Part shown: one piece after another, positions 23,451 to 36,375 of the stretch
How positions within the stretch are numbered: position 1 is the stretch's first letter
How the letters are laid out: each line of letters begins with the position of its first letter
Program-made: the position numbers and the translations under genes
NCBI RefSeq assembly: GCF_011603255.1
Contig: NZ_JAANCM010000004.1
Location: 372,001 to 436,000 of the forward strand
DNA length: 64,000 nucleotides
Direction: 5' to 3'
Source of the DNA: Ferranicluibacter rubi
GTDB lineage: Bacteria; Pseudomonadota; Alphaproteobacteria; Rhizobiales; Rhizobiaceae
Notes under the pieces: model-generated
Databases searched by the model: none
Seen by the model: only the letters and a program-made list of their open reading frames with translations
Told to the model about the DNA's origin: nothing

Positions 23451-24338
23451 TCAGCGCCGCTCAAGCAGTCGGCAGATATCTTCCAACTGTTCCAGCGTCT
23501 TATAGCTGATCTTCAGCTGGCCGCCACTTGCCCGGTGATTGACAGAAACCTCAAGGCCAAGACTGTCGGTCAGGGAGCGTTCGAGGGCAACTGTGTCTGC
23601 ATCCTTTTCAGGACGAGGCTTCGCACCAAACGTCGGATCGTTCTGGGCCCGGATATCGTTCTGCGCAAGTTTTTCCGTATCCCGAACGGACAGGCCCTTT
23701 GCGATGATCGCACGGGCGAGGGTGGTCGGGTCGGACGTGGGGATCAGCGCGCGCGCATGGCCAGCTGAAAGTGTGCCTGAGGACAGCATGTCGCGCACCG
23801 GCTCTGGAAGTTTCAGAAGCCGGAGGCTGTTTGCCACATGGCTCCGGCTCTTGCCGATGATCTCGCCGAGGTCGTTCTGCGTGTAGCCGTGATCGGCGAT
23901 CAGCAGCTCATACCCCATGGCTTCTTCAAGAGGATTGAGGTCGGAACGCTGAACGTTTTCGACAATGGCGATTTCGAGGGCCGTGCGATCATCCACATCG
24001 CGAACGATGACGGGAATATCCGAAAAGCCCGCAAGCTGGGCTGCACGCCAGCGGCGCTCGCCCGCGATGATTTCGAACCGGTCACCGTTCACAGTGCGAA
24101 CGACGACAGGCTGGACGATACCATGCTGCCGAACAGAGTTTGCGAGATCCTGCAATTCCGCCTCGTCGAACGTCCGCCGCGGATTTCGTGGATTGCGCGT
24201 AATATGCTCGATCGGGACACGCTGGTCTGCTGGAACGATTGGCGCGGAGGCTGATTCAGCGACGATGGGCTGATCCATCTCACCGATCAATGCGGCAAGA
24301 CCTCGTCCGAGACGGCGCCGTGCGGGATCTTCGTTCAT
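23451..24338 (-). CDS. parB: Chromosome partitioning protein ParB
   Basis: Sequence-specific CTPase that loads at parS and spreads along DNA for origin segregation. The protein has an N-terminal RRRLGRGLAALIG peptide (ParA-stimulating arm), the CTP-binding ParB/Srx domain with NPRNPRR and GERRWRAAQ (93-101), a helix-turn-helix domain around YTQNDLGEIIGKSRSHVAN, and a short C-terminal dimerisation region. Length is 295 residues. AAGGAG lies before the ATG. It is downstream of parA with a 33-base gap and in the same direction as parA-rsmG-mnmG. Five parS-like sites lie in the window. Confidence 0.97.
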   Translation of the reverse strand: MNEDPARRRLGRGLAALIGEMDQPIVAESASAPIVPADQRVPIEHITRNPRNPRRTFDEAELQDLANSVRQHGIVQPVVVRTVNGDRFEIIAGERRWRAAQLAGFSDIPVIVRDVDDRTALEIAIVENVQRSDLNPLEEAMGYELLIADHGYTQNDLGEIIGKSRSHVANSLRLLKLPEPVRDMLSSGTLSAGHARALIPTSDPTTLARAIIAKGLSVRDTEKLAQNDIRAQNDPTFGAKPRPEKDADTVALERSLTDSLGLEVSVNHRASGGQLKISYKTLEQLEDICRLLERR

Positions 24339-24371: not shown

Positions 24372-25169
24372 TTACGCCGCAGCTTTCCGCTGGCGCTCGC
24401 GTTGAATAACTTCCGACGCGAGCTGCAGATAGGCCTGGCTGCCGGCACATTTAAGATCGTAAAGAATAGCAGGCTTTCCATAGGACGGCGCTTCGGAAAC
24501 CCTGACGTTACGTGGAATGAGCGTATGGTAAACTTTCTCGCCCAGATGTGTACGCACGTCACTCACGACCTGTTGTGCAAGGTTGTTCCGGGAATCGAAC
24601 ATTGTCAGGACGATACCTTGGATATCGAGCTGCGGATTAACGCTCCTTCGGATCTGATCGACGGTTTCCAGCAATTGGCTAAGCCCTTCGAGCGCAAAGA
24701 ACTCGCACTGAAGCGGCACGAGAACCGAATGCGCGGCGGCCATGGCGTTCATGGTCAGCAGATTGAAGGATGGCGGGCAATCGACCAGAATATAGGAATA
24801 GGCCAGTGCTTCCGGTGTCCCGAGAGCCTTCTTCAAGCGAAAAACACGGTCGCTCTGACTGGAAATTTCCATCTCCAGACCAAGAAGATCCATGGTCGAG
24901 GGAATGATCGACAAGTTCGGAACGACAGTCGGATGAACGATCGTATCGATCGTATGCGTTCCCATCATCAGGTCGTAGGAAGAATACCGACGATCACGGC
25001 GCTGAATACCGAGCCCGGTGCTCGCATTGCCCTGAGGATCCAGATCGATGATCAAGACAGATTCACCGATTGCAGCTAGAGCGGTCGCGAGATTGATGGC
25101 TGTCGTCGTTTTACCAACGCCGCCCTTTTGGTTCGCAATCGTAATGATCCGATTTTTATCGCGCGACAT
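24372..25169 (-). CDS. parA: Chromosome partitioning ATPase ParA
   Basis: Walker-type ATPase that moves ParB-bound origins by a nucleoid gradient. The deviant Walker A motif KGGVGKTT is at 15-22 with the signature Lys, followed by [14 protein letters not shown] and the Walker B segment [17 protein letters not shown]. Length is 265 residues, and there is no N-terminal regulatory domain as in plasmid ParA type Ia. It overlaps the 3' end of rsmG by 14 bases and is followed by parB, the usual chromosomal order. Confidence 0.97.
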
Positions 25170-25815
25170 TGATCGCTCCTGCGCCCTGGCTCAGCTGCTG
25201 CATCCGCGTGATCTCGAGAATGACGGAGTCAGCCTCGACAATGCTTTGGTGTTTTACCAGATCGAAATCATACCGACCACGCGCATTCGCGACTTCCGTC
25301 TCGTAATCCCTGCCTTTGTGAAAGAAAGCGCGTGTCGCACCACTCGCCATCCAGGGCGCGATGAACTGCAGCAACAGGGACAGATCGGCAACGGCCCGCG
25401 CAGAGATCGCATCGCAAGCCGGAATTTTCGTGGGAGCGTCTTCAATACGCAGAACATGAACGGAGCCTCGTGCACCCGTTTCCTGCAATGCGACGCGAAG
25501 GAATGCTGCTTTCTTCTGATTGCTCTCAACGAGATGAACCCATCCTTCCGAGATTTCGGAAAGAAGAATGGCTGTGATGACACCGGGAAATCCGCCACCG
25601 CTTCCCAAATCGATCCACGTCTTCGGGCCGGGCGCGAGCGCATAAATCTGAGCGCTGTCCCGGATATGTCGGTTACCGATGTCTCCAAGCGTGGAGGGAG
25701 CCACAAGGTTGATCGTTTTCGCCCATTTCAGGAAGAGCTGGGTAAAATGTTGAAGCCTCTCGGTCGTTTCACGTGAAACACGCAAGCCGATCAATTCCGC
25801 GGACTGACTCGCCAT
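25156..25815 (-). CDS. rsmG: 16S rRNA (guanine-N7)-methyltransferase RsmG (GidB)
   Basis: Methylates N7 of a conserved guanosine in 16S rRNA (G527 in E. coli); loss often gives low-level streptomycin resistance. The SAM-binding motif [12 protein letters not shown] occurs at about 67-78, followed by [12 protein letters not shown] and the conserved ISARAVADL block. The 219-residue length is normal. The ATG overlaps the mnmG stop by one base and the end overlaps parA by 14 bases, so mnmG-rsmG-parA-parB are tightly coupled. A perfect core parS site lies inside the gene near its 5' end. Confidence 0.96.
25766..25779. promoter_or_regulatory. parS site (perfect 14-base core)
   Basis: GTTTCACGTGAAAC, a perfect palindrome and full core match to the bacterial chromosomal parS consensus. 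It lies in the 5' coding part of rsmG, about 7.5 kb from the proposed oriC. Confidence 0.88.
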
Positions 25816-27692: not shown

Positions 27693-27709
27693 TTCGATTC
27701 CGATTCAAT

Positions 27710-27723
27710 GTTTCACGTGAAAC
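27710..27723. promoter_or_regulatory. parS site (perfect 14-base core)
   Basis: GTTTCACGTGAAAC with a T on the left and a G on the right, between mnmE and mnmG, about 5.5 kb from the proposed oriC. It matches the 16-base consensus at 15 positions. Confidence 0.88.
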
Positions 27724-27751
27724 GTGCGGGACGACTCGCATGCGTTGCAGT

Positions 27752-29185: not shown

Positions 29186-30451
29186 TCACGTGTTCATGGA
29201 GTCGAAGAAATCGCCGTTCGTCTTCGTCTGCTTCAACTTGTCGATCAGGAACTCGATCGCATCGGTCGTGCCCATCGGCGCGAGAATACGGCGGAGAACG
29301 AAGATCTTCTGGAGATCCTGACGCGGAACGAGCAGGTCTTCCTTGCGGGTACCGGACTTCAGAATGTCCATCGCCGGGAAGATACGCTTGTCGGCGACCT
29401 TGCGGTCGAGCACGATTTCCGAGTTGCCCGTGCCCTTGAACTCTTCGAAAATGACTTCGTCCATGCGGCTGCCGGTATCGATCAGCGCTGTCGCGACGAT
29501 CGTCAGCGACCCACCTTCTTCGATGTTACGTGCAGCACCGAAGAAGCGCTTCGGACGCTGCAGGGCGTTGGCATCCACACCACCGGTGAGAACCTTGCCA
29601 GAGGACGGCACGACGGTGTTGTAGGCGCGGCCGAGGCGGGTGATGGAATCGAGCAGGATGACAACGTCGCGACCATGCTCGACAAGACGCTTGGCCTTTT
29701 CGATCACCATCTCGGCGACCTGCACGTGCCGCGTGGCCGGTTCGTCGAAAGTGGAGGAAACGACCTCGCCCTTCACGGAGCGCTGCATGTCCGTCACTTC
29801 TTCCGGCCGCTCATCGATGAGGAGAACGATCAGATAACATTCCGGATGGTTGGCGGTGATCGAATGCGCGATGTTCTGCAGCAGCACCGTCTTACCCGTG
29901 CGCGGCGGCGCGACGATCAGGCCGCGCTGGCCCTTGCCGAGCGGTGCCACGAGATCCATGACGCGCGAGGAAAGATCCTTGGAGGTGGGAACCTCGAGTT
30001 CCATCTTGAAGCGCTCGTTCGGATAGAGCGGCGTCAGGTTGTCGAAGTGCACCTTGTGCCGGATCTTCTCCGGATCTTCGAAATTGATCGTGTTGACCTT
30101 GAGGAGCGCGAAATAGCGTTCGCCTTCCTTCGGTCCGCGGATCGGACCCTCGACCGTATCTCCGGTCTTCAGCGAGAAGCGCCGGATCTGGGAAGGAGAG
30201 ATGTAGATATCGTCGGGGCCGGGGAGGTAATTGGCATTGGCGGAGCGTAGGAAGCCGAAGCCGTCCTGGAGGAGCTCGACCACACCTTCGCCGATGATCT
30301 CGACGTCCTGCGCCGCGAGCATCTTCAGGATGGCGAACATCAGCTCCTGCTTGCGCATCACGCTGGCGTTTTCGACCTCCACCGACTCGGCGAACGCCAG
30401 AAGGTCGGTTGCAGATTTGTTCTTGAGGTCTTGGAGCTTCATTTCAGCCAT
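29186..30451 (-). CDS. rho: Transcription termination factor Rho
   Basis: Hexameric RNA helicase that ends transcription at unstructured C-rich sites. The 421-residue protein has the N-terminal helical part, the RNA-binding cold-shock-like domain ([22 protein letters not shown] at about 64-85), Walker A APPRTGKT (181-188), [13 protein letters not shown], Walker B-type [16 protein letters not shown], and the Q/R-loop region. No insertion domain is present. The start MAEMKLQDL is conserved in relatives; the upstream bases do not show a good ribosome-binding site. An IS element and a structured 186-base leader precede the gene. Confidence 0.98.
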
Positions 30452-30562
30452 GAAGGAAAATCACACTTGCAGAGGGAATGGAAGGGCTGGCGCTGTGTGG
30501 GTCAAGGGAGCGGCAGGGGGATAGCCACTCGAACTCTAACGCGCGCCAGAAAGATGGGATGT

Positions 30563-30610
30563 CACACGCTAGCGACTTCCGGCCTGCACCGCAAGGGGGC
30601 TAGCGATGTG
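30563..30610. repeat. Imperfect inverted repeat in the rho upstream region
   Basis: CACACGCTAGC pairs with GCTAGCG-A-TGTG around a 25-base spacer, an 11-bp stem with a single bulge. No T-run follows on either strand, so it does not look like a terminator. It could be part of the rho 5' untranslated region. Confidence 0.5.
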
Positions 30611-30637
30611 AGAGGCTAAAATGTCCGTGATGGCCTA

Positions 30638-30654
30638 GGGTCTGTTGAGGTTCA
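30638..30654 (+). repeat. IS left terminal inverted repeat
   Basis: GGGTCTGTTGAGGTTCA. The stop codon of the second transposase frame lies at its inner edge. Confidence 0.85.
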
Positions 30655-31038
30655 TCGCGAATGGATGATGGCAGCGGCGAGATGGATGATAGCTTTGAAG
30701 CTTGTGTCGGTTTTGCAGGCTCGCATAGCGATGCGCTTGAAGTCCTTCAGTTTGCAGAAGAAGTTTTCGATGAGATGACGCCATTTATAGAGTTCGGCGT
30801 CGATCTTCAGAGGCGAGGCCCGTCTGGGATGCTGGGAGATGACGATCTTGGCACCACGTTCGTTCAAGTCTGCGATGATGGCGTTGCTATCGAAGGCCTT
30901 GTCGGCGATCAGTCCTCCGAAGGAGAGACCCTCAATCAGCGGCGCGACGCCGACCGTGTCGAAGCGCTGGCCGGGCATCAGGACAAAGCGCACCAGGTTG
31001 CCGAGCGCATCGGTAAGAGCCAGGATTTTAGTCGTCAT
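30652..31038 (-). CDS. IS5/IS427-group transposase, second frame (OrfB)
   Basis: The 128-residue frame carries the second half of the DDE catalytic domain: Asp in GGLIADKAFDSNAI and the Glu in YKWRHLIENFFCKLK, which matches the Y-(2)-R-(3)-E-(6)-K signature of IS5 elements. The shown start is the first ATG in the frame, but the frame is open further upstream and reads GTESQAIGRSKGG before it, which is the conserved joint of full transposases. It is therefore most likely made as an OrfA-OrfB fusion of about 250 residues by -1 frameshifting at the AAAAGGGGG run near 31078-31086. Confidence 0.85.
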   Translation of the reverse strand: MTTKILALTDALGNLVRFVLMPGQRFDTVGVAPLIEGLSFGGLIADKAFDSNAIIADLNERGAKIVISQHPRRASPLKIDAELYKWRHLIENFFCKLKDFKRIAMRACKTDTSFKAIIHLAAAIIHSR

Positions 31039-31403
31039 GCCACCCTTGGAACGGCCGATGGCCTGGCTTTCAGTCCCCCTTTTGCACCTTGTCCATGGCG
31101 GTGGACCTTGACGATGGTTGCGTCGACCATGGCGTATTCCATGTCTGGCTCATCCGAGCAGGCTTCGAAAAATCGTACAAAAACATCGGCTTTGACCCAA
31201 TCGCGAAAGCGCACAAACACTGTGTTCCATTTGCCAAAGGACGCGGGCAGGTCACGCCACGGGCTGCCCGTGCGAACGATCCAAAGCACCGCCTCGACAA
31301 ACAGCCGGTTGTCGCTTCCGTTCCGTCCAGGATCACCCGACTTGCCGTTACAATGCGGTTCCATCTTCGCCCACTGGGCATCAGTCAAAACAAATCGTTC
31401 CAT
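31035..31403 (-). CDS. IS5/IS427-group transposase, first frame (OrfA, DUF4096-like)
   Basis: The 122-residue frame starts MERFVLTDAQWAKMEPH and contains the DUF4096-type N-terminal domain (DNRLFVEAVLWIVRTGSPWRDLP) and the first catalytic Asp in YAMVDATIVKVHRH. After KGG it runs into about 12 residues unlike any transposase (LKARPSAVPRVA) and stops, while the -1 frame continues the conserved sequence. OrfA alone may act as a regulator or be a by-product. Transcription runs toward rho. Confidence 0.85.
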   Translation of the reverse strand: MERFVLTDAQWAKMEPHCNGKSGDPGRNGSDNRLFVEAVLWIVRTGSPWRDLPASFGKWNTVFVRFRDWVKADVFVRFFEACSDEPDMEYAMVDATIVKVHRHGQGAKGGLKARPSAVPRVA

Positions 31404-31441
31404 CCAGAGCTTGAATCATAATCTCCAAACAAATGGAATCC

Positions 31442-31458
31442 TGAACCTCAACACGCCT
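31442..31458 (-). repeat. IS right terminal inverted repeat
   Basis: Reads AGGCGTGTTGAGGTTCA inward on the minus strand, 14 of 17 matching the left repeat. Its outermost base is the third base of the hemJ stop codon. Confidence 0.85.
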
Positions 31459-32021
31459 TAAAACGGCTTTACGATGACGAGGATCACGATGACGATCATC
31501 AGAACGGTTGGCACCTCGTTCATCAGTCGCCAATAGCGCGCCGTGCGTCGCGCGCCATCGCGCGAAAAACGCCCGACGGCATCGGCATAGTGCACATGCA
31601 CGCCGGTCAGCAGGATCACGGCAAGGATCTTGGCATGAAGCCAGCCGCCCTGAAAACCGTAGACGCTCCAGGCGAGATAGAGCCCGAGCGTCCAGGTGAT
31701 CATCATGGCCGGGCGCATGATCACCTTCATGAGCCGCTGCTCCATCACCTTGAAGGTCTCCGACGTCTGCGAGCCCGGCTCGGCGTCGGTGTGGTAGATG
31801 AACAGGCGGGGCATGTAGAGGAGGCCGGCCATCCAGGAGATGACGGCCACGACATGCAGCGCCTTGATCCACAGAATGAGATCGGCCGGCTGCCAGACGA
31901 TCAGCCCAACGATAACAGCCACAAGCACCGAAAGCGCCACAAAGGCCCGTACGCGCGATTTGCGGCCTGCAGGGGCATCCGTCTGCCGCGTGCCACTCTC
32001 ATCGCGCTCTGGGGTGCTCAT
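31458..32021 (-). CDS. hemJ: Protoporphyrinogen IX oxidase HemJ
   Basis: Membrane protein that oxidises protoporphyrinogen IX to protoporphyrin IX in haem synthesis. Four hydrophobic segments are visible, and the conserved [21 protein letters not shown] block holds the essential His. An N-terminal extension of about 25 polar residues precedes the first segment. The product is 187 residues and ends in VIVKPF, the usual family end, so the IS next to it has not truncated it: the stop TAA is built from the target TA plus the last IS base. AGGAG precedes the ATG, which overlaps the hemE stop by four bases. Confidence 0.92.
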
Positions 32022-33049
32022 ACACGGCTCCTGACACGAGCCACGAGATCGGCGACATGCGCAGGATCGGCTTGCGGCGTGATGCCATGGCCGAGATTGA
32101 AGATCAGAGGGCCTTGTCCGAGACGGTCGAGGATATGATCGATCCCTTCCTCGAGAGCCTTGCCGCCTGCAACGACACGCATCGGATCGAGATTGCCCTG
32201 CACCGGGCCTTCCTTCTGCAGGTCGGCCGCAAACGACAGCGGCACCGACCAGTCGAGACCGATCGCATCGGCTTGCGTCTTCTGGCGATAGTCCTTGAGC
32301 AGCAAACCGGCCCCCTTGGCGAAGGCGATGATCTTCGCATCGGGCCTGCGTGCCCGCACGCTGTCGATGATCCGACGCACGGGAGCGACCGCAAACCGCT
32401 CGAACGTATCCTCCCCGAGCACACCGGCCCAGGAGTCAAAGATTTGCACGGCATCCGCACCGGCGTCGAGCTGCGCGACGAGATAGTCCGCGGACAGTTC
32501 GGCGAGGAGGGCGAGCAGCGCATCGAAGACTTCCGGGTTCCGATAAGCGAACAGCCGTGCCGGCGCCTGGTCCGGTGTCCCGTGCCCGGCGATCATGTAG
32601 GTCGCGACCGTCCAGGGTGCACCGCAGAAACCGAGCAGTGCTGTTTCCGTCGGAAGCTCCCGGCGCAGGCGCGCCACGGTTTCGATGACGGGACGCAGAT
32701 GATCGGTCACCGGCCTTCCGTCGAGAGCCTTGATACCGTCGACATCGATCGGATCGAGCTTGGGTCCGCTGCCTTCCTCGAAGCGGACATTGCGCTTTAG
32801 GGCATCGGGAATGACGAGGATGTCGGAAAACAGGATGGCCGCATCGAAAGCGTAGCGCCGGATCGGCTGCAGCGTCACTTCCACGGCAAAGTCCGGGGAA
32901 TAGCAGAGATCGAGAAAGCTCCCGGCCCTTGCCCGCGTCTCGCGATATTCCGGCAGATATCGTCCGGCCTGGCGCATCAGCCAGATGGGCGGAGGCGTCA
33001 CCGTCTCCCCGTTCAGAACACGGACGAGCTTGCGGTTTTCAGACGTCAC
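32018..33049 (-). CDS. hemE: Uroporphyrinogen decarboxylase
   Basis: Converts uroporphyrinogen III to coproporphyrinogen III in haem synthesis. The N-terminal [20 protein letters not shown] is the family signature with the substrate-binding Arg residues, followed by [11 protein letters not shown] with the essential Asp, [14 protein letters not shown], and the C-terminal [12 protein letters not shown]. The 343-residue length is standard. The start is a GTG with AGGGA about 9 bases upstream. hemE next to the origin is the arrangement known from Caulobacter and Sinorhizobium; hemJ overlaps its end by four bases. Confidence 0.97.
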
Positions 33050-33060
33050 ACACAGCTTCC

Positions 33061-33120
33061 CTCTTAAAATAGAATCTTGAATCTAAGGGTTTCTATTTCT
33101 TAGAGTCGGTGACTATCAAG
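33061..33120. other. AT-rich block of oriC, candidate DNA-unwinding element
   Basis: Only 20 of these 60 bases are G or C, in a window that is otherwise clearly GC-rich. It holds three of the four GANTC sites and an inverted repeat TCTAAG-N11-CTTAGA. The position beside the DnaA boxes fits an unwinding element. Confidence 0.5.
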
Positions 33121-33270
33121 GATTAAAGGTTGTCCGTCCTTTGTCCCCAGAACGCCATTCCGTCCAAATTGGCGGGACGATGATCAGGCGCTTGAGGGAC
33201 AACATAGGGAGCAAGTCGAAAAAATCCCGTCATTCAAGCAACTTGGCTGTCGTCCAATTTCTCCTCTGCC

Positions 33271-33279
33271 TGTGGATGA
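33271..33279 (-). promoter_or_regulatory. DnaA box candidate 1
   Basis: TCATCCACA on the minus strand, 8 of 9 matches to TTATCCACA. Confidence 0.55.
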
Positions 33280-33318
33280 CCTGTTGAGGATCGGCGGCGA
33301 TCGGTCGCATCGCGAGTC

Positions 33319-33327
33319 TTTTTCACA
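33319..33327 (+). promoter_or_regulatory. DnaA box candidate 2
   Basis: TTTTTCACA fits the relaxed box TTWTNCACA and abuts a GAGTC site. Confidence 0.45.
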
Positions 33328-33361
33328 AGTTCTCCGGAAAGATCGCCGGCGCGGGTCTCTT

Positions 33362-33370
33362 TGTGAATAA
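33362..33370 (-). promoter_or_regulatory. DnaA box candidate 3
   Basis: TTATTCACA on the minus strand, fits TTWTNCACA with one change from the strict consensus. Confidence 0.55.
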
Positions 33371-33420
33371 GTCGGAGGTTTTCCCCTTGCCTGCCGGGCC
33401 GGCTCCCCCCTAGGCTCGGT

Positions 33421-33429
33421 TTATCCACC
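33421..33429 (+). promoter_or_regulatory. DnaA box candidate 4
   Basis: TTATCCACC, 8 of 9 matches, 27 bases before the ppsR start, so DnaA could also affect ppsR transcription. Confidence 0.55.
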
Positions 33430-33455
33430 ATCATCAACAGGCGGCCAAGAATAGC

Positions 33456-34277
33456 GTGGACAATCACAAAAACTATTTCCACCTGCATCTGATCTCCGAC
33501 TCGACGGGCGAAACGCTGATCGCGGCGGGCCGGGCAGCCGCGGCGCAATTCCAGACCTATCATGCGCTGGAGCACGTCTATCCGCTGATCCGCAATCGCA
33601 AGCAGCTGATGCAGGTGCTGGAGTCGATCGACACGGCGCCGGGCATCGTTCTCTACACGATCGTCGATCGCGAGCTGTCCGACATCATCAATGCCCAGTG
33701 CCAGCAGATCGGCGTGCCCTGTGTGTCCGTGCTAGAGCCGATCATCGATCTCTTCCAGACCTATCTCGGCACCTCGTCGCGGCGGCGGTCCGGCGCCCAG
33801 CATGTCATGGATGCCGATTATTTCGCGCGGATCGACGCGCTGAACTTCACGATGGATCATGATGACGGCCAGCTTCCGGCCGACTTCAACGATGCAGATG
33901 TCGTGCTGATTGGGATCAGCCGAACATCGAAGACGCCGACCAGCATCTACCTTGCCAATCGTGGCATCCGCACTGCCAACATTCCGATCGTGCCGGGGTT
34001 GCCCCTGCCGGAACGACTGCTGGAGGCGACGAAGCCGCTGGTCGTCTGCCTCATCGCGACGGCCGATCGCGTCTCCCAGGTTCGCGAACACAGGGTGCTT
34101 GGCACGACACAAGGGTTTCACGGGCAGGACTATACGGATCGTGCAGCGATTGCCGAGGAACTGAAATATGCCCGTGCGCTCTGCGCCCGCAACAACTGGC
34201 CGATCATCGACGTCACGCGACGCTCGATCGAGGAAACGGCCGCCGCCATCGTTGCCCTGAGGCCGCGCCTGCGCTAG
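33456..34277 (+). CDS. ppsR: PPSR/PDRP-family bifunctional kinase-pyrophosphorylase (DUF299)
   Basis: Family members phosphorylate and dephosphorylate a Thr on PEP synthetase or pyruvate phosphate dikinase, using ADP and phosphate. The P-loop-like motif [11 protein letters not shown] is at 153-163, and the N-terminus reads [12 protein letters not shown]. The 273-residue length is typical. In alphaproteobacteria the target is probably pyruvate phosphate dikinase, which is not in this window. The start is a GTG without a clear ribosome-binding site. It is the first gene on the right side of the origin and opens the rightward run to dnaQ. Confidence 0.9.
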
Positions 34278-34305
34278 TCCGCATCGCGATAGGGAGAGAT
34301 CATCC

Positions 34306-34932
34306 ATGACGCATCAGCTTGTCCTCGCCTCTGCGAGCCCGTTCCGGCGCATGCTGCTCGAGAATGCCGGCATCGCCTTTACGTGGCAGGCGGCCGAGAT
34401 CGACGAACGCGCGCTGGAAGCGCCGCTCGAAGCAGAAGGCGCATCCCCGGAAAGGGTCGCGACTGTGCTCGCCGAGGCGAAGGCTGAATCTGTCGCCTCG
34501 GCGTTGCGCAAAGGGCAAGGGGTTGGGGAAGGCACCGGTCCCGTCGTCATCGGGTCTGACCAGACGATGTCGCTCGGGGGCCGCGTGTTTCACAAGCCCG
34601 CCTCGATGAAGGAAGCGCATGACCATTTGCGCGCCCTGTCCGGCCGAACCCATCAGCTGAACAGCGCCATCGCCCTTCATCAGGATGGCAGGACCGTGTG
34701 GTCACACGTCTCGACCGCCCGCCTGACGATGCGCCCGTTCGATGACGGGTTTATCGCGCGCCATCTTGAGCGGGTGGGGGAGAAGGCCTTGACCAGCGTC
34801 GGCGCCTACCAGCTGGAAGGCGAGGGGATACAGCTGTTCGAGGCGATCGACGGCGATTATTTCACGATCCTCGGATTGCCGATCCTGCCGTTGCTCGCCG
34901 AATTGAGAAAACTGAGTGTCATCGATGCATGA
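34306..34932 (+). CDS. maf: Maf-family nucleoside triphosphate pyrophosphatase
   Basis: House-cleaning pyrophosphatase that hydrolyses non-canonical or certain NTPs and is linked to septum inhibition. The N-terminal [16 protein letters not shown] is the family signature, followed by GSDQTMSL and the invariant FHKP loop. The length is 208 residues. GGGAGAG lies before the ATG. It sits 28 bases after ppsR and its end overlaps the start of aroE by 8 bases. Whether it is the YceF type or the dTTP/UTP type cannot be decided with certainty. Confidence 0.9.
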
Positions 34933-35788
34933 TTCACGTGAAACATTTGTTAACCATGCCTTCGTCGCGGGCTATCCGGTCCGCCATTCGCGCTCACCCC
35001 TGATCCATTCGCACTGGCTGAAGACACTGGGGCTGGATGGCAGCTACACCACGCGCGAAGTCACGCCCGCCATCTTTTCTGATTTCATCGCGCTTCTCAA
35101 ATCCGGCCAATCCGGCTTCGTGGGGGGCAATGTCACCATTCCGCACAAGGAAACAGTGATCGCCCATGTCGATGAGGCCGATGCGCTGAGCCGGGAAATG
35201 GGTGCGGCCAACACCGTCTGGCTGGAGGAGGGCCGGCTGAAGGCAACCAATACAGACGGCCTCGGCTTCGCCGCCAATCTCGATGAGCGGGCACCGGGAT
35301 GGAACAACGCCGAGACCGCCATCGTGCTCGGCGCCGGCGGTGCCAGCCGCGCGGTGATCCAGGCCGTCCGCGATCGCGGCGTCCGCACCATCCACGTGGT
35401 CAATCGCACGCTACCACGTGCCCGCGAACTCTCTGACCGTTTCGGGCGCACACGCGTTATTGCCCACGCCATGGACGCACTGCCGGAGCTTCTCACCGAT
35501 GCAAGCCTCTTCATCAACACGACCTCGCTCGGCATGGATGGAACGGCGGTTCCGGACTTCGACTTCACCCGCATGCCTGACAACGCTGTCGTGACGGATA
35601 TCGTCTATGTGCCGCTGGTTACGCCTATCCTGGCACAGGCAGGGGCACAGGGCCGAAGGATCGTAGACGGGCTCGGCATGCTGTTGCATCAGGCAGCGCC
35701 GGGCTTCGAAAAATGGTTCGGTCAAAAGCCTCTCGTGGACGAAACGCTGCGCGCCCTCGTCATCGCCGATATGGCGGCACACGCATGA
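34925..35788 (+). CDS. aroE: Shikimate dehydrogenase
   Basis: Reduces 3-dehydroshikimate to shikimate with NADPH in aromatic amino-acid synthesis. The substrate site [13 protein letters not shown] is at about 16-28, with NVTIPHKE carrying the catalytic Lys, ATNTDGLGF, and the nucleotide-binding GAGGASRAV followed by NRTLPRA, which indicates NADP preference. I take the ATG giving [13 protein letters not shown] (287 residues); a GTG three codons upstream is possible. Its 5' end overlaps maf and contains a parS-like site, and its stop overlaps the coaE start (ATGA). Confidence 0.95.
34931..34944. promoter_or_regulatory. parS-like site (one mismatch) at the maf/aroE junction
   Basis: GATTCACGTGAAAC differs from the perfect core at one base and matches the 16-base consensus at 15 positions. 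It is only about 1.7 kb from the proposed oriC, the closest site. A CtrA-type half-site TTAACCAT follows at 34950-34957. Confidence 0.72.
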
Positions 35789-36375
35789 TCGTCCTCGGGC
35801 TCACGGGATCGATCGGCATGGGCAAGTCCACGACGGCCGAAATGTTCACGGCGCTGGGCGTTCCCGTCAACGATGCCGATGCCGCCGTTCATGATCTCTA
35901 TCGCGGCCAGGCCGCCGCACCCATCGAGGCAGCTTTTCCCGGTTCCACGAAAGACAGTGTGGTCGATCGTGCGGCGCTCAGCGCGGCGCTGGCGAAACAT
36001 CCGGACGGCTTCAAGACGCTGGAGTCGATCGTCCACCCCCTCGTCCGGGAAAGGGAGCGGGCCTTTCTCGACAGAGAAAGACAGGTAAACGCCGCCCTTG
36101 TTGTCCTCGATATTCCCTTGCTTTACGAGACGGGCGGCGAGGATCGGGTCGATAAGGTCGTGGTCGTTACTTGCGATGCCGACATCCAGCGTCAGCGGGT
36201 TCTCGCCCGTCCGGGCATGACCCCGGAAAAATTCGCCCTGATCCTGTCGCGGCAAATGTCGGACAGCGAGAAACGCGCCCGTGCAAACTATGTGATCGAC
36301 ACCGGTCACGGACTGGACGCCGCGCGCCAAAGAGTCGAAGAGATTGTCCGCGACCTCACTACCCGAGCGGGATAA
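35785..36375 (+). CDS. coaE: Dephospho-CoA kinase
   Basis: Catalyses the last step of coenzyme A synthesis, phosphorylating the ribose 3'-hydroxyl of dephospho-CoA. The P-loop GSIGMGKST is at residues 8-16, followed by [11 protein letters not shown] and [11 protein letters not shown]. The ATG overlapping the aroE stop (ATGA) gives [11 protein letters not shown] and 196 residues; a longer in-frame reading with Arg-rich residues upstream is aroE coding in another frame. It is part of the maf-aroE-coaE-dnaQ run. Confidence 0.96.

Follow-up and report, generated by a model that had tools for sequence, protein, structure and literature searches.

Where does replication of the main chromosome begin in Ferranicluibacter rubi (Rhizobiaceae)? 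We asked this of a 64,000-nucleotide stretch of contig NZ_JAANCM010000004.1 (positions 372,001 to 436,000, forward strand), called the window below, which comes from a draft assembly in 42 contigs. A preliminary description of the window had read the gap between hemE and ppsR as a candidate chromosomal origin of replication (oriC). That reading is supported by the flanking genes, a DnaA-box cluster, an unstable AT-rich stretch, parAB with parS sites, and conservation in relatives, and we consider it very probable that the gap is the DnaA-dependent oriC of the main chromosome. An origin at the usual hemE-ppsR address of related bacteria is a solid, largely expected finding. Site anatomy, conservation and neighbours were observed directly, beginning with the gap and its boundary genes:

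33050..33455, unstranded: oriC candidate, the hemE-ppsR intergenic region (406 bp); strict box cluster unique in 400 kb
32018..33049, minus strand: hemE, left boundary gene (TIGR01464 above cut-off)
33456..34277, plus strand: ppsR / PF03618, right boundary gene (NF003742 and PF03618 above cut-offs)

Gene direction flips at the gap, as had been described, with the hemE side running leftward and the ppsR side rightward. We take ppsR (PF03618) to be equivalent to COG1806. According to the excerpt of PMC1914354, the Caulobacter origin, with sites for DnaA, CtrA and IHF, lies between hemE and COG1806, as does the Rickettsia one; the gap, which the earlier remark placed at the known Caulobacter oriC location, has those same boundary genes.

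Four DnaA-box-like 9-mers had been counted in the gap, and all four were recovered: three match at 8 of 9 positions (33271, minus; 33362, minus; 33421, plus) and one fits TTWTNCACA (33319, plus). A further box-like site at 33431..33439 stands outside those four, and its consensus in relatives is TTATCAACA. Fractions below refer to the 104 distinct gaps, the window's own among them, that are described further on.

33271..33279, minus strand: DnaA box TCATCCACA; 8/9 match; at most one mismatch in 53/104, 12 exact
33319..33327, plus strand: DnaA box TTTTTCACA, weak here; fits TTWTNCACA; 52/104, 11 exact
33362..33370, minus strand: DnaA box TTATTCACA, the most conserved; 8/9 match; 94/104, 24 exact
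33421..33429, plus strand: DnaA box TTATCCACC, poorly conserved; 8/9 match; 12/104 at 33420-33421
33431..33439, plus strand: DnaA-box-like TCATCAACA; two mismatches here; at most one mismatch in 56/104, 0 exact
33141..33149, plus strand: weak DnaA-box-like TTGTCCCCA; two mismatches; at most one mismatch in 15/104

The chance background was a 400,000-base sample of the window's own contig (C37; 465,788 bases in all). Boxes with no more than one mismatch are expected at 0.031 per 406 bp; the gap holds three and is the sole such cluster in the 400 kb. Seven boxes with at most two mismatches start in the gap, a number reached nowhere else in that background. When TTWTNCACA was allowed one mismatch, the gap had four sites; one other place in the 400 kb (stretches whose starts lie between 99.7 and 100.1 kb on the contig) had at least four, the maximum being five.

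To compare relatives, we collected loci by a PpsR-based search (the best 80 of 300 relatives, kept as named loci) and searched 61 whole genomes, of which 49 had PpsR and 30 were retrieved as loci, our own included. The named loci are recorded under Rhizobium, Pararhizobium, Sinorhizobium/Ensifer, Shinella, Xaviernesmea, Ciceribacter, Martelella and a few other rhizobial names, together with unclassified Rhizobiales, bins and two entries under other genus names (Arenimonas and Marinicella). One locus cut by a contig end, without hemE (L044), was dropped, and removal of 5 duplicates from the remaining 109 gaps left 104, the window included; three (L035, L037 and L038) come from outside the family but within the order. 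These gaps are related by descent, and the counts are not independent events. The nearest named relatives within the best 80 (isolate AFS017967, Rhizobium sp. PP-CC-3A-592, NFR03 and Leaf371) have PpsR proteins 97-99% identical to that of the window. Adjacent, divergent hemE and ppsR genes are present in 79 of the 80 named loci, L044 being the one cut short. Gap length is 399-409 bp in 77 of the 79 and 388 and 392 bp in the other two. Lengths are given for these named loci; those of the reverse-oriented loci outside the named set (L013-L018, L024, L025, L027-L030 and L036-L038) are approximate. Boxes with at most one mismatch average 3.29 per gap across the 104, versus 0.09 in simple base-shuffled copies; 54 gaps lack an exact box, and a single one lacks a box even at one mismatch. 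A further DnaA box at 33282-33290 (minus strand), 11 bp from the 33271 box, occurs in 29/104 relatives (17 exact) and is degenerate in the window.

At the hemE end of the gap lies a block reported earlier as having 20 G or C in 60 bases; we found a minimum of 19, at 33064-33127. Such 60-mers (at most 20 G+C) make up 0.017% of all 60-mers in the window, and those with at most 19 occur at eight places in the 400 kb, the gap included. Duplex stability in the gap is lowest over the 50 bp from 33056, a level of instability reached at four places in the 400 kb, again counting the gap. The four GANTC sites of the preliminary description were also present; at least four occur in 0.39% of 406-bp stretches of the background.

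33056..33127, unstranded: candidate DNA-unwinding element; AT-rich, low duplex stability
33072..33076, unstranded: GANTC site; same place in 18/104
33079..33083, unstranded: GANTC site; same place in 8/104
33103..33107, unstranded: GANTC (CcrM-type) site inside the 36-bp block; same columns in 100/104
33314..33318, unstranded: GANTC site; same place in 53/104
33090..33125, unstranded: conserved 36-bp block, 40 bp upstream of the hemE start
33090..33101, minus strand: four DnaA-trio-like triplets, AAG AAA TAG AAA; no other place in the gap has three or more
33114..33126, plus strand: possible IHF site TATCAAGGATTAA; differs from the consensus at one position

The 36-bp block is the best conserved part of the gap, with a mean column identity of 0.90 over 33090-33127 versus 0.58 across the whole (104 gaps). 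Its 36-mer is matched with at most 3 mismatches in 67/104 gaps and with at least 11 in 15/104, whereas with each gap shuffled once every best match had at least 15. Searched in 297 genomes of the family with at most 3 mismatches, the 36-mer was found in 57 (20 of 109 genera), in a single copy each, and 240 were unmatched; a reversed control pattern gave no match in the 297. DnaA-trios have the form 5'-[T/A]A[G/A]-3'. Runs of at least four trios number three in the 400 kb, counting both strands. The four trios are kept in 77 of the 104 gaps and not in the other 27, and some variants change letters yet retain the form (TAG AAA TAG AAG in 12/104). One base past the run stands GAGTC, the GANTC site of the block.

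The partition genes and parS sites are less than 10 kb away from the gap:

23451..24338, minus strand: parB (TIGR00180 above cut-off)
24372..25169, minus strand: parA-like ATPase adjoining parB; ParA/MinD-type families, none above cut-off
25765..25780, unstranded: parS, one mismatch to the consensus
27709..27724, unstranded: parS, one mismatch to the consensus
34930..34945, unstranded: parS, one mismatch to the consensus

All six parS-like sites (at most two mismatches) in the 400 kb of the window's contig lie between 371.9 and 444.1 kb, around the gap (405 kb). A same-genus genome (G006) also has six in 400 kb, all of them between 4.019 and 4.097 Mb; its gap is at 4.02 Mb.

On this anatomy, DnaA would bind the box array at 33271-33439 and extend from it toward the AT-rich stretch beside hemE (33056-33127), where it may grip one strand at the trio-like triplets of the conserved block. 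The strand grip would open the duplex and lead to helicase loading, forks would depart both ways from oriC, and ParB on the nearby parS sites would separate the new chromosome copies. We infer from this arrangement that DnaA binds, where the duplex opens and that the trios are used, as well as the role of ParB and any effect of GANTC methylation.

Could the gap instead be a mere divergent promoter region for hemE and ppsR, the block being a hemE promoter with a site for a methylation-sensitive regulator? The position of the block, 40 bp from hemE and just beside that gene in all 20 loci retrieved from the 57 matching genomes, suits such a reading, which leaves unexplained, however, a DnaA-box array held at fixed places over 169 bp and the clustering of parS. 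It also leaves unexplained five loci of one genus (L212-L216) that retain block and boxes with no ppsR match within ~1.5 kb of the block. In these the gap apparently runs to maf-like sequence, judging from open frames, and in one (G020) PpsR was not found in the whole genome. Their box offsets from the block start are 180-181 and 268-269 in 5/5, 218 in 4/5 and 336-337 in 3/5, those of the window being 181, 272, 229 and 341. Since these loci keep the boxes without an adjacent ppsR, the array is independent of ppsR, which counts against a ppsR promoter. A scan of 32950-33560 gave no sigma-70-like promoter, a weak test for this bacterial group. We regard a promoter region alone as very unlikely. 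Promoter and origin roles can be compatible, by analogy with Caulobacter, where hemE transcription and the origin are linked according to the excerpt of PMC8959179. That the gap encodes a small RNA such as Caulobacter CcnA and owes its conservation to that RNA seems still less probable: the gap has no Rfam match up to E = 1, the excerpt of PMC2245857 gives no transcription signal for the S. meliloti oriC, and according to the excerpt of PMC8959179 S. meliloti showed no clear CcnA-like homologue.

Several observations weigh against an origin in the gap, and part of them would suit a true origin elsewhere, for example beside dnaA or past the right end of the contig, with the gap a conserved relic. 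Cumulative GC skew over the 400 kb of the window's own contig shows no turning point at the gap; apart from a climb at ~265-296 kb its general course is downward, and the lowest value comes at 465,174, the contig's right end. The raw interpolated curves of two same-genus genomes are also lowest at or near contig ends, at base 0 in G006 (maximum 1.78 Mb) and at 3.58 Mb in G001, and minima near the gap appear only in detrended whole-contig curves. Boxes are degenerate in the genus, with no exact box in the window and one box (at most one mismatch) in the 3.8-kb G006 locus; the box-like site nearest the trios is ~40 bp off and has two mismatches; and no CtrA site of the form TTAAN7TTAA, the one form scanned, occurs in the gap within two mismatches, so we do not call the origin CtrA-gated. 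GC skew alone is insufficient in several alphaproteobacteria, according to the excerpt of PMC1914354. The G006 contig (4,282,491 bases) was sampled in 20 stretches spread evenly to 3.8 Mb, the first with 2500 N, and 20 around the gap and the end. Its skew is positive in 9/9 stretches at 0-1.6 Mb and negative in 9/11 at 1.8-3.8 Mb, and in the 400 kb around the gap (4.02 Mb) the lowest point is 4,044,144, tied at 4,056,592, in a rather flat stretch. Detrended, its minimum is at 4.04 Mb and its maximum at 1.78 Mb, an amplitude matched by 0/2000 shuffles. The G001 contig (3.67 Mb, 40 stretches) has a mean skew of -0.031 left of the gap (9 stretches), -0.009 at 0.7-1.5 Mb (10), -0.007 at 1.5-2.8 Mb (13) and -0.036 beyond (7), with the gap stretch excluded. 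Its overall mean (G001:C1) of -0.019 is off zero, which makes detrending necessary; the detrended minimum is then at 660 kb (gap at 684 kb) and the maximum at 2.44 Mb, an amplitude matched by 0.45% of shuffles. The shuffles are lenient, as stretches were taken as independent and sampling was uneven. Given detrending, the relatives' skew agrees with the site within tens of kilobases, and that of the window's own genome neither proves nor refutes it. Against an origin elsewhere stand these detrended same-genus minima, the dnaA locus, located on a different contig (C11), where the 3486 bases covered contain a single box-like site, and the box places kept across relatives, which a relic would not be expected to retain. 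We hold it to be the least probable of the three alternatives. The genome also seems to carry several repABC replicons; three RepC genes lie on contigs C14, C1 and C39, and the gap is on none of these.

Around the gap, parB through hemE run leftward, including an insertion sequence (IS) between rho and hemJ, and ppsR, maf and aroE run rightward. Leftward of hemE the order is hemJ, the IS element, rho, mnmE, mnmG, an rsmG-like gene (presumably so, from the usual gene order), the parA-like gene and parB. The IS5-like element (30636-31460) has PF01609 and PF13340 in two overlapping frames and 19-bp imperfect end repeats; its right end touches the hemJ stop codon, 1.6 kb from the origin. A reverse open reading frame at 33234-33575 (113 amino acids) matched no Pfam family. 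One terminator-like match lies at 33297-33313 in the 32950-33560 span, where shuffles average 0.6. The lone Rfam match in 30000-36000, to a microRNA model (E 0.81, far under threshold), lies outside the gap and was set aside.

Of all parts of the origin, the conserved block has been described least. No account of it was found among the literature matches listed or in their excerpts, by topic or by sequence, the latter kind of search being a weak one, and the excerpts of PMC7851589, PMC8725594 and PMC6090056 added nothing on the hemE-ppsR gap. The block might be a distinct, undescribed Rhizobiaceae origin module that combines a DnaA-trio opening site, a near-invariant CcrM site and a possible IHF site (perhaps also the hemE promoter), with CcrM methylation gating the firing of the main chromosome; we think this doubtful. 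With its trios and GAGTC, the block is a precise target in the search for a link between CcrM methylation and initiation; such a link has been studied in Agrobacterium at ori2, a repABC origin, according to the excerpt of PMC11514494. What is conserved in such origins is box places and one short block, and the likely main origin is now located in a draft Rhizobiaceae genome. Automated oriC annotations are sometimes wrong, as the excerpt of PMC13342612 notes.

How does this origin compare with known ones? Gap and flanks alike recur in the S. kostiense, S. americanum and S. fredii loci. The oriC of Sinorhizobium meliloti, for which Sibley et al. 2006 is said to be the reference, presumably also adjoins hemE. 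It corresponds to SMc04880 and is given as 477 bp in the excerpt of PMC11476347, unlike the 406 bp here, a comparison by published length only. The basal unwinding system of bacterial origins consists of DnaA boxes and DnaA-trios (PMC10225481, in excerpt). As in that system, a conserved trio-like run lies here within the unstable stretch. Unlike it, the nearest box-like site is weak and stands at that ~40-bp distance from the trios. The Caulobacter crescentus origin, Cori, has five CtrA sites, against none of the TTAAN7TTAA form within two mismatches in the gap, but shares with the gap the same boundary genes, DnaA boxes and an AT-rich region (PMC1914354 and PMC8959179, in excerpt). Since the Caulobacter and Rickettsia origins are known at this same place, the origin in the window joins a known kind.
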